Below, one piece after another: positions 2-8,389 of a stretch of DNA of 11,783 nt. The stretch covers positions 1 to 11,783 of the forward strand of contig CADCUA010000652.1 in NCBI GenBank assembly GCA_902805755.1, in the 5' to 3' direction. The DNA comes from an uncultured Lysobacter sp. (GTDB lineage: Bacteria; Pseudomonadota; Gammaproteobacteria; Xanthomonadales; Xanthomonadaceae). Position 1 is the first letter of the stretch; the number at the start of each line of letters is the position of its first letter. The position numbers and the translations under genes were made by a program. The notes beneath the pieces were generated by a model. It ran no database searches and was not told the DNA's origin. It was given only the letters and a program-made list of their open reading frames with translations.

Positions 2-1231
2 ATCCACCAGTCCGACATGGTGCTGCTGCCGGACCCGTCCAGCGCATTCGTCGACCCGTTCACCGCCGACCCGACGCTGGTGCTGGTCTGCGACATCCTC
101 GACCCGGCCACGATGCAGGCCTACTCGCGCGACCCGCGCGGCGTCGCCAGGCGCGCCGAGGCGTTCCTGAAATCCGCCGGCATTGCCGACCAGGCGTTTT
201 TCGGCCCGGAGCCCGAATTCTTCATCTTCGATTCGGTGCGCTATGCGAACGAGATGGGCCATACGTTCTTCCACATCGATTCGGAAGAAGCGGCGTGGAA
301 CTCCGGCCGTGAATACGCGGGCGGCAATACCGGCTACCGCCCCGGGGTCAAGGGCGGCTACTTCCCGGTCGCGCCGCTGGACACGCTGCACGACATCCGC
401 GCCGAGATGTGCAAAACGCTCGAAGCGATCGGCATCGAAGTCGAAGTGCACCACCATGAAGTCGCGAACGCCGGCCAGTGCGAGATCGGCACGAAGTTCA
501 ACTCGCTGACCAAGAAGGCCGACGAGCTGCTCGCGATGAAGTACGTGATCAAGAACGTCGCGCACCGCAACGGCAAGACCGCCACGTTCATGCCCAAGCC
601 AATCGTCGGCGACAACGGCAGCGGCATGCACGTGCACATGAGCCTGGCCAAGGGCGGCACCAACCTGTTCTCCGGCGACGGTTACGGCGGCCTGAGCCAG
701 ATGGCGCTGTGGTACATCGGCGGCATCTTCAAGCATGCGCGTGCGCTCAACGCGTTCTGCAATTCCACGACGAACAGCTACAAGCGCCTGGTGCCGGGCT
801 ACGAGGCGCCGGTCATGCTCGCGTATTCGGCCTCGAACCGCTCGGCCAGCTGCCGCATTCCATACGTCGCGAACCCGAAGGCACGCCGCATCGAGATCCG
901 CTTCCCCGACCCGATGAACTCCGGCTACCTGATCTTCGCCGCGTTGATGATGGCCGGCCTGGACGGCATCAAGAACCAGATCGACCCGGGCGCACCGTCG
1001 GACAAGGATCTCTACGACCTGCCGCCGGAAGAGGAGAAGAACATCCCGACCGTGTGCCACAGCCTGGACCAGGCGCTGGAAGCACTCGACAAGGACCGCG
1101 ACTTCCTCAAGGCCGGCGGCGTGTTCACCGACGACCTGATCGACGCGTACATCGGTCTGAAGATGAAGGAAGTCACCGCGTTCCGCGCGGCGACGCATCC
1201 GCTCGAATACCAGATGTACTACGCGATCTGA
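2..1231 (+). CDS. glnA: Glutamine synthetase type I, 5'-truncated by window edge
   Basis: Glutamine synthetase makes glutamine from glutamate, ammonia and ATP in the cytoplasm, as a dodecamer in this family. The frame is open from base 2 ([11 protein letters not shown]...). This aligns with residue 61 of the 469-aa E. coli enzyme, and the 409 residues present plus 60 missing give exactly 469. Visible family motifs are [11 protein letters not shown] (metal-binding glutamates), [12 protein letters not shown], the ATP/glutamate-site stretch [25 protein letters not shown], and [14 protein letters not shown]. The adenylylation tyrosine is present in [11 protein letters not shown] (Tyr codon 1013-1015), so this is the GlnE-regulated GSI-beta form. 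It ends [12 protein letters not shown] with TGA. Its last nine codons are duplicated downstream in a tandem array. The promoter lies outside the window. Function is near certain. Confidence 0.97.
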
Positions 1232-1242
1232 TCGAACGTACT

Positions 1243-1282
1243 GGCCGGACATCCATGGCTTCGGACCGGCGGATGTCCGGCC
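1243..1282 (+). terminator. Strong hairpin after glnA, possible terminator or 3'-end stabiliser
   Basis: A perfect 12-bp inverted repeat, GGCCGGACATCC and GGATGTCCGGCC, with a 16-nt loop starts 11 nt after the glnA stop. No T-run follows, so it is not a canonical intrinsic terminator. It could be a non-canonical terminator, an RNase barrier at the 3' end of glnA mRNA, or a dispersed palindromic repeat. The right arm (GGATGTCCGGCC) recurs in later units of the array, while the left arm is complete only here. Confidence 0.5.
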
Positions 1283-1299
1283 CGGCGCAGCGCGCCGGG
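1281..1299. repeat. GC hairpin in array unit 1
   Basis: This is an inverted repeat of 8 bp, CCCGGCGC / GCGCCGGG, with loop AGC. It overlaps the right arm of the preceding 12-bp hairpin by two bases, so the two structures may compete. There is no T-run. Confidence 0.6.
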
Positions 1300-1350
1300 C
1301 GTTCGGAACCGGCGCGCGGCAATGCCGCGCAAGCGCCGCTTCCTCACCCG

Positions 1351-1380
1351 CTCGAATACCAGATGTACTACGCGATCTAA
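1351..1380 (+). repeat. Exact copy 2 of the glnA tail, with TAA stop
   Basis: This copy is identical to glnA 1202-1229 over 28 nt, then TAA replaces TGA. The bases just upstream encode PHP in the glnA reading frame, where glnA has THP. No start codon or other part of glnA precedes it, so it is not expressed as a protein in its own right. Confidence 0.95.
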
Positions 1381-1429
1381 GGCACCGCGGCGTCCGGAGC
1401 CCTGCCGCTCCAGACCGGCGCATGTCCTG

Positions 1430-1448
1430 CCCGGCGCAGCGCGCCGGG
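1430..1448. repeat. GC hairpin in array unit 2
   Basis: This is the same 8-bp stem and AGC loop as at 1281-1299, repeated at the equivalent place in the second unit. A decayed version lies at 1704-1722 in unit 4. Confidence 0.6.
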
Positions 1449-1498
1449 CGTTCGCAGCAGGCACGCGGCCATGCCGCGTAGCGCCGGCGCCTCACCCG

Positions 1499-1528
1499 CT
1501 CGAATACCAGATGTACTACGCGATCTAA
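1499..1528 (+). repeat. Exact copy 3 of the glnA tail, with TAA stop
   Basis: This copy is identical over 28 nt to the glnA end, again with TAA and the same CCTCACCCG lead-in as copy 2. It is the last perfect copy; from here the units shorten and diverge. Confidence 0.95.
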
Positions 1529-1626
1529 GGCATCCTCGCGGATGGGCATCCGTTCCCTCGGGATCGGCGGATGTCCAGCCCGGTGCAAGCACGCGGCCGT
1601 CCCGCGTAGGGCCTACGGCCCACCGG

Positions 1627-1654
1627 CGGGAATACCAGATGTATTAAGCGATCT
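1627..1654 (+). repeat. Decayed copy 4 of the glnA tail
   Basis: It keeps AATACCAGATGTA and GCGATCTGA, but a substitution puts an early TAA in the glnA frame (TATTAAG for TACTACG). The start of the unit has changed to CGGG from CTCG. Confidence 0.85.
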
Positions 1655-1748
1655 GAGGCACCGCCGGTCCGGCGCGCTGCCGCTGTAGACCGGCGGATGT
1701 CCGGCCCGACGCAACGCGCCGGGCGCGCATGCATCCCGTCCTCGCCCG

Positions 1749-1775
1749 CTCGAGTTCCGGACCATTACGCGATCT
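1749..1775 (+). repeat. Strongly decayed copy 5 of the glnA tail
   Basis: It keeps CTCGAG at the left and TTACGCGATCT at the right, is one base shorter, and lacks the CAGATGTA centre. A further, weaker relative lies at 1863-1890 (CATCGAGT ... CACGCGATC). Confidence 0.65.
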
Positions 1776-1793
1776 GGCTGCGGCGAAGTGTCC

Positions 1794-1927
1794 GGAGCTG
1801 AGCAGCTCCCGACGTTCGCAGCCGATAGGCGGCAGTGACCCGCCAGCAAGCGCTCCTCACCGCATCGAGTCGCGGGTCAGCACGCGATCGAACGTCGGCC
1901 CAGCGCCGGAGCCCGGCAGCTCCGGGC
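1794..1927. other. Array end and following region with GC palindromes, no gene seen
   Basis: Palindromes here include GGAGCTG AG CAGCTCC at 1794-1809 and overlapping alternatives CCGGAGC/GCTCCGG (1906-1925) and GCCCGG/CCGGGC (1911-1927). They occupy the place of the hairpins in earlier units and may be their decayed relatives. From 1928 to about 2176 I see no gene or further clear signal; the open frames there have an amino-acid mix unlike a protein. Confidence 0.4.

Positions 1928-2956: not shown

Positions 2957-8388
<5,432 letters not shown>

Positions 8389-8389
<1 letters not shown>

Follow-up and report, generated by a model that had tools for sequence, protein, structure and literature searches.

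Why does the end of glnA recur, unit after unit, directly downstream of the gene? The question is raised by a stretch of 11,783 nt from an uncultured Lysobacter sp. (hereafter the window), which is one contig of a 759-contig MAG. Integrative elements can enter the 3′ ends of genes, using attB sites in tRNA, 5S or protein genes, and restore the gene that they enter. A preliminary description of this locus had proposed, as one inference, repeated site-specific insertion at the 3′ end of glnA. Recurrence exactly at that end stands, but an integrase-bearing or lost island is not supported: what separates the tails, the short hairpin "spacer", is itself the element.

The tail array in the window

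The 30-nt string CGCTCGAATACCAGATGTACTACGCGATCT is found exactly at 1200 (within glnA), 1349 and 1497, and with 25 of 30 matches at 1625, the successive starts being 149, 148 and 128 nt apart. The last 32 nt of glnA recur at the second and third of these positions, identical up to the change of the stop from TGA to TAA. A unit runs from the glnA tail through a spacer measuring about 37 nt, GCGGATG, hairpin 1, GTTCG and hairpin 2 (longer than hairpin 1, and bulged) to CTCACC (Table 1). The hairpin-bearing part, named element X here, was scored with R1, a covariance model built from 17 X cores. Three exact 30-mers within 300 bp rule out a chance origin of the repeats. An artefact of the MAG or its assembly is likewise ruled out, because isolate genomes such as Lysobacter bugurensis KCTC 23077 (L175) carry the same layout.

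Two exact and at least three decaying copies of the glnA end had been recognized before, and all of them were recovered (exact at 1349 and 1497; decayed at 1625, ~1741 and ~1856). Copies 2 and 3 indeed share TAA and GGCA against the TGA of glnA, but the PHP read in front of them, previously taken for a variant of the glnA codons, stems from CTCACC, the right-hand terminus of the hairpin element. The reported gradient of decay away from glnA holds in the window and fails as a rule. In the window, G393, G043 and G019 the distal X elements have clearly lower scores than the proximal ones, and in G003, G270, G232 and G178 the scores are about equal; the gradient is therefore not general, being clear in just 4 of the 8 arrays that have at least two elements. 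A seventh tail in the region 1960–2075 is unsupported, its score being reached in 57 of 1000 shuffles.

Two other repeats were observed in the window. A 21/42-bp tandem repeat (~57–77% matches) lies directly 3′ of the array at 2219–2498, in non-coding or weakly coding DNA, and positions 2957–8389 encode a hybrid histidine kinase of 1810 aa, whose eight HAMP stretches come from an in-frame 276-bp repeat.

Table 1. Features of the glnA tail array, in window positions
Feature	Position	Strand	Remarks
glnA (glutamine synthetase) CDS	17..1231	+	ORF coordinates; gene truncated by left edge of window; Pfam PF00120
S1, left junction CATC|CGC within glnA	1196..1202	+	
Tail 1, functional glnA end	1200..1231	+	stop TGA
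Spacer 1	1232..1268	+	across genera, length kept, sequence hardly
S2, GCGGATG	1269..1275	+	reverse complement of S1; candidate guide
Element X copy 1, R1 model match	1269-1354		97.1 bits
Hairpin 1, X copy 1	1280..1300	+	
Hairpin 2, X copy 1	1305..1343	+	outer stem covaries between genomes
Right end of X copy 1	1344..1348	+	TCACC of CTCACC; adjoins tail 2
Tail 2, exact copy	1349..1380	+	stop TAA
Element X copy 2	1418..1502	+	R1 67.3 bits; match takes in first bases of tail 3
Tail 3, exact copy	1497..1528	+	stop TAA
Element X copy 3, remnant	1567..1630	+	R1 16.9 bits, E 0.22; direct repeats D1, D2
Tail 4	1625..1656	+	25/30 identical; contains in-frame stop
Element X copy 4, shortened	1693..1752	+	R1 39.9 bits
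Tail 5, decayed	~1741..1779	+	score above 1000/1000 shuffles (0/1000 reach it)
Tail 6, strongly decayed	~1856..1893	+	score reached in 6/1000 shuffles

Element X and the genes that it adjoins

The family to which element X belongs is dispersed and palindromic; X measures about 70 nt and has two dissimilar hairpins, a GTTCG linker and a CTCACC end. Further copies were found by DNA search in the window's own genome and in relatives. An exact-pattern scan placed it in at least Lysobacter, Luteimonas, Pseudoxanthomonas and Stenotrophomonas, besides other genera. With the covariance model, X was detected in all 13 family genomes tested, in at least 3 to at least 41 copies each (lower bounds, with 150 candidates scored per genome), and in neither of two genomes of other families. 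The hairpins covary: 51 cells show both-side (compensatory) changes versus 15.1 ± 3.3 after shuffling, a number reached by none of 500 shuffles, and a slid-structure control gave at most 12. The outer stem of hairpin 2 has changed on both sides in 8 of 9 pairs, and no compensatory change was found in the S2–S3 stem within glnA units. Rfam gave no gathering-level match in the window or at X in nine loci, where SRP RNA and tRNA were the sole hits, and a known RNA family was ruled out for X on that basis.

A large number of X copies lack a tail and terminate where the stop codon of a convergent gene, such as xerD, lies. Among the 30 best-scoring loci (L254–L283), a sample biased to loci having X, the element ends exactly at the convergent xerD stop in about 23 by eye and in 21 by a crude pattern; its stems vary widely there and stay paired. 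Across genera, X also recurs at the ends of the same genes, namely acnA, those of the rplQ/rpsD region, and xerD. Some flanking direct repeat accompanies 43 of 130 copies screened, a count that includes tandem X and unrelated repeats. In addition, tail-less X occurs in plain tandem arrays with units of 71 nt (L025) or 146 nt (L024). The latter array, at the end of contig G004:C24, has two alternating X copies in near-identical units and reaches the contig end.

At glnA, the same tail–spacer–X layout was identified in at least 26 genomes from 12 genera of the family. The glnA tail pattern has matches in 273 of 395 family genomes and at least two matches in 24, of which 23 are arrays and one is G231, whose second match falls outside the array count. 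Of 40 places with a single match that were retrieved, one of them too short to read, three turned out to be further arrays, in which the second tail has diverged more. The entry point, CAYC|CGCT, is constant across arrays. In the window's own genus, an array is present in 2 of 8 genomes and a single tail in 6. Copy number differs among species; variable copy number among strains was one of the signs that the preliminary description had named as support for its proposal. The element between two tails for which it had also suggested looking is present as well, and in G308 the native end and 600 bp of downstream sequence lie beyond it.

That description had further reasoned that an array dispersed away from glnA would turn the glnA match into a chance capture. 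The spacer does belong to a dispersed family, yet among the matches listed in the 395 family genomes (the second match of G231 left out) glnA tails stand only at glnA, with no ectopic tail. Since glnA tails keep to glnA and other genes have tails of their own, a chance capture of the glnA end by a dispersed repeat was ruled out. These other genes are acnA (aconitase), a NarL/MadR-type response regulator gene and an nlpD/ActS-like M23 gene, each with tail, spacer, X, CTCACC and displaced tail, in part as homogeneous arrays with units of 151–152 nt.

A similar element (GGGGCGTTCG, a hairpin and CTCACC) adjoins the 5S rRNA tail CCCATGCGAGAG... in Halomonadaceae. The displaced 5S tail is clear in three of six loci and degenerate in the other three, and Rfam identifies 5S in four of the six. 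This duplication includes the terminator, and the units bear their own native terminator. Variable repeats (GGAGCGCCGCCCGGGT...) were also seen in or beside displaced 5S rRNA tails at L131, L170, L188 and L230.

Geometry, paired motifs and displaced gene ends

Of 31 glnA units, 30 have the hairpin-1 block 75–77 nt from the junction, and the remaining one is truncated; in 36 first units from four genes this distance is 75–82 nt. Spacers measure 36–38 nt in 25 arrays, and their identity between genera is 0.37 versus 0.28 when shuffled. Just 5′ of hairpin 1, S2 is complementary to the left junction S1 of its gene over at least 6 nt in 25 of the 36 units and over fewer in 11. For 14 distinct targets, the mean complement is 6.29 nt in the true pairing, 4.67 when swapped and 4.33 between genes. 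Moreover, S1 and S2 vary in concert from gene to gene, within acnA (both-side changes CTTCCGCC/GGCGGAAG and CTTCCGGC/GCCGGAAG) and within the NarL-type gene, where the pair has three versions. When 133 X copies were scanned, all 19 complements of at least 7 nt fell at −84 to −90, i.e., at the left junction. For the full set of 133 copies, complementarity does not exceed the control (4.82 versus 4.73), and the pairing is therefore specific to the gene-tail class.

No X lies within 400 nt after the last tail in 24 of the 26 glnA arrays, which thus have N elements and N+1 tails (counting, for G019, its truncated second element). The two exceptions are the window and G003, and the distal parts of both are decayed. 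The closest pair of an array genome and an arrayless one is G308 and G175, in which the last 290 bp of the glnA body are identical at 284 positions. The final tail of G308 and its downstream sequence match the native gene end of G175 with 96% identity over ~606 nt, and the unit precedes this stretch; therefore, it sits between the gene body and the native end.

Similarity of X cores is 0.89 within genera and 0.73 between them, a sign of some vertical descent. Overall, X core similarity is unrelated to glnA-body similarity across 25 arrays (Mantel rho −0.06, p 0.71), a Mantel test on whole units gave rho −0.10 (p 0.82), and the X core of the window is nearer to that of G270, from another genus (0.90), than to that of G003 from its own (0.85). 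The tail nearest the gene is not unusually foreign: its tail/body rate ratio is 1.34 in 16 arrays versus 1.19 in 50 arrayless ends, and 1.91 versus 1.95 in all close pairs. These rates do not support a foreign replacement tail as a general rule, although G308 fits one.

Explanations of the array and comparison with known systems

We tentatively read the array as built up by a non-autonomous element that inserts again and again, is directed by base pairing and resupplies the gene end, an explanation to which we give slightly less than an even chance. A unit of ~149 nt would enter glnA each time at one position, CATC|CGC, which lies 31 nt short of the gene's end. It would open with replacement last codons and a stop, followed by the spacer, two hairpins and CTCACC. 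Each insertion would push the resident gene end downstream and supply a new one; the gene would therefore stay intact, and N insertions would give N+1 tails. Placement would be set by pairing of the 7–9 nt motif 5′ of hairpin 1 with its target in the gene, and each subfamily would therefore return to its own gene in a homing-like manner. We infer from these patterns that the unit is mobile as such and that pairing has a role in targeting, and likewise that a single-stranded DNA intermediate is involved and the mobilising enzyme acts in trans. The independence of X core similarity from glnA-body similarity also favours this reading. Counting against it are the failure to find a mobilising enzyme, the 11 of 36 units with short complements, the ordinary rates of the proximal tail, the greater likeness of X cores within genera and the decay gradient seen in only half of the longer arrays; nor did any ectopic glnA tail point to free transposition. 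The proposal in its fullest form is a homing-like, guide-directed single-stranded DNA element whose subfamilies each have a 7–9 nt target at a 3′ end, re-insert repeatedly, supply a replacement end (protein or rRNA) and depend on an enzyme in trans; so much taken together seems rather doubtful to us.

If insertion of this kind is real, a minimal element of ~150 nt enters essential genes without breaking them, choosing its site by base pairing; displaced gene ends would form a readable stratigraphy, and the element would account for annotations in which gene ends are oddly repeated. Should insertion indeed be directed by guide pairing, these loci would provide a ready-made natural system for studying DNA-guided site-specific insertion, and they would bear on the long-standing question of how REP-like palindromes spread in genomes with no recognisable transposase.

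The main rival, a serious one although we consider it less likely, is duplication in situ followed by recombination, with no dedicated enzyme. X would stand near the gene end by descent, tandem duplication at CAYCC microhomology would have made tail–spacer–X–tail, and unequal crossing-over, gene conversion and DNA uptake from relatives would have expanded, homogenised, spread and deleted units. The junctions do have CAYCC in common, tail 1 is native-like, and tail-less elements form the plain tandem arrays of L025 and L024. Units within a genome can be near-identical, spacer included (acnA in G057, the NarL-type gene in G270, glnA in G178, G043, G232 and G270), and G308 differs from G175 also in the two codons directly before the junction, as an imported tract would. 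However, plain duplication predicts as many elements as tails, and the surplus tail of 24 of the 26 arrays would require loss of the last X every time. Recombination also leaves unexplained why the distance from junction to hairpin stays fixed over 12 genera as the spacer sequence changes, and why guide and target have changed on both sides.

It is improbable that X is chiefly a functional 3′-end structure (a terminator, an mRNA or DNA structure, or REP-like) kept by selection, with tail copies as by-products and a geometry that reflects RNA folding across the stop codon. Such a role would agree with the recurrence of X at equal gene ends in different genera, with the compensatory changes that keep its hairpins and with REPs, which are often 3′ of genes and act as RNA elements according to parts of PMC3733652 and PMC12306157. 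On the other hand, X is missing at glnA in most relatives, as in the six single-tailed genomes among the eight of the window's genus; a terminator has no need of a coding-tail copy behind it, the 5S rRNA units have their native terminator too, and no Rfam family matches.

Very improbable is the last alternative, REP/BIME elements of a GGTGAG-type head class moved by RAYT (TnpAREP), with RAYT lost in some genomes: palindromes, dispersed copies, gene-end placement and a guide-like motif recall such elements as portrayed in parts of PMC2817692 and PMC8266576, but the head given in the former is GT(A/G)G. PF01797 (RAYT/IS200 transposase) was detected in 8 of 13 genomes tested and not in G000, G001, G043, G057 or G178, four of which have glnA arrays; the Y1 HUH transposase expected, in cis or trans, of an IS200/IS605-type element is thus missing, by PF01797, from G043, G057 and G178, which have arrays. 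Just two RAYT loci among 16 have an X-like pattern in the fetched flank; the two belong to G308 and are ~1.5 kb apart. RAYT is therefore a weak candidate for mobilising X, and X falls short of the REPtron arrangement, in which a cognate RAYT gene is flanked by the repeat.

Compared with integrative elements of gene 3′ ends, X has the same displaced native end behind and replaced end in front (in G308/G175 and in 24 of 26 arrays) and the same tandem accretion. It differs in its unit of ~150 nt and in several housekeeping targets, each with its own guide, and no integrase was found with it: ORF clustering near the elements revealed neither the integrase-bearing element between tails that the preliminary description had envisaged nor any recurrent transposase or recombinase family, only housekeeping neighbours. 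The unit presumably bears no resemblance to the attC consensus of integron cassettes.

IS200/IS605 elements (IS608, ISDra2) and TnpAREP select cleavage sites by guide motifs 5′ of hairpins, as described in parts of PMC8266576, and in most gene-tail units of X the sequence 5′ of hairpin 1 is likewise able to pair with the target and covaries with it. Unlike them, X pairs over 7–9 nt with a target 75–82 nt from the hairpin, has no transposase gene, keeps returning to one gene end and duplicates the gene tail. By analogy, X would work like a guide-using single-strand element combined with a gene-end-restoring integrative element, departing from both where an enzyme is required.

REP, BIME and REPIN sequences with RAYT resemble X in being short, palindromic, paired, dispersed, non-coding, non-autonomous and mostly at gene ends. 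X is distinguished by its size, its unlike hairpins, linker and end, by bearing or adjoining host gene tail copies and by several array genomes without RAYT. In an alignment of 17 cores, hairpin 2 has GTTCG and GGTGAG (the latter on the reverse strand) next to it and hairpin 1 has GCGGATG-TCCG, with no GTAG or GTGG, i.e., no GT(A/G)G head 5′ of the palindrome. The CGTC-tagged REPs in the relevant part of PMC3733652 are also a palindromic family without a dedicated transposase, but differ from X in size, structure and terminal motif. Host gene-tail copies are not described in the parts of PMC8266576, PMC2817692 and PMC3733652 that were compared. Moreover, no account of gene-tail-restoring palindromic elements or of glnA tail arrays was found in open-licence PMC full texts. 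X units may represent an undescribed kind of gene-end-restoring element.

Carriage of X by phages or plasmids was set aside, as phage and plasmid records and viral contigs gave no match, near the sensitivity limits of blastn and one exact pattern. A crude pattern search for an autonomous copy, with hairpins 1 and 2 flanking a gene, returned broken or variant elements only. Near-identical longer repeats containing X were observed in Pseudoxanthomonas wuyuanensis (L134, L182, L183 and L187); two of them have a second, inverted X ~250 nt away and may represent a recent composite mobile unit.
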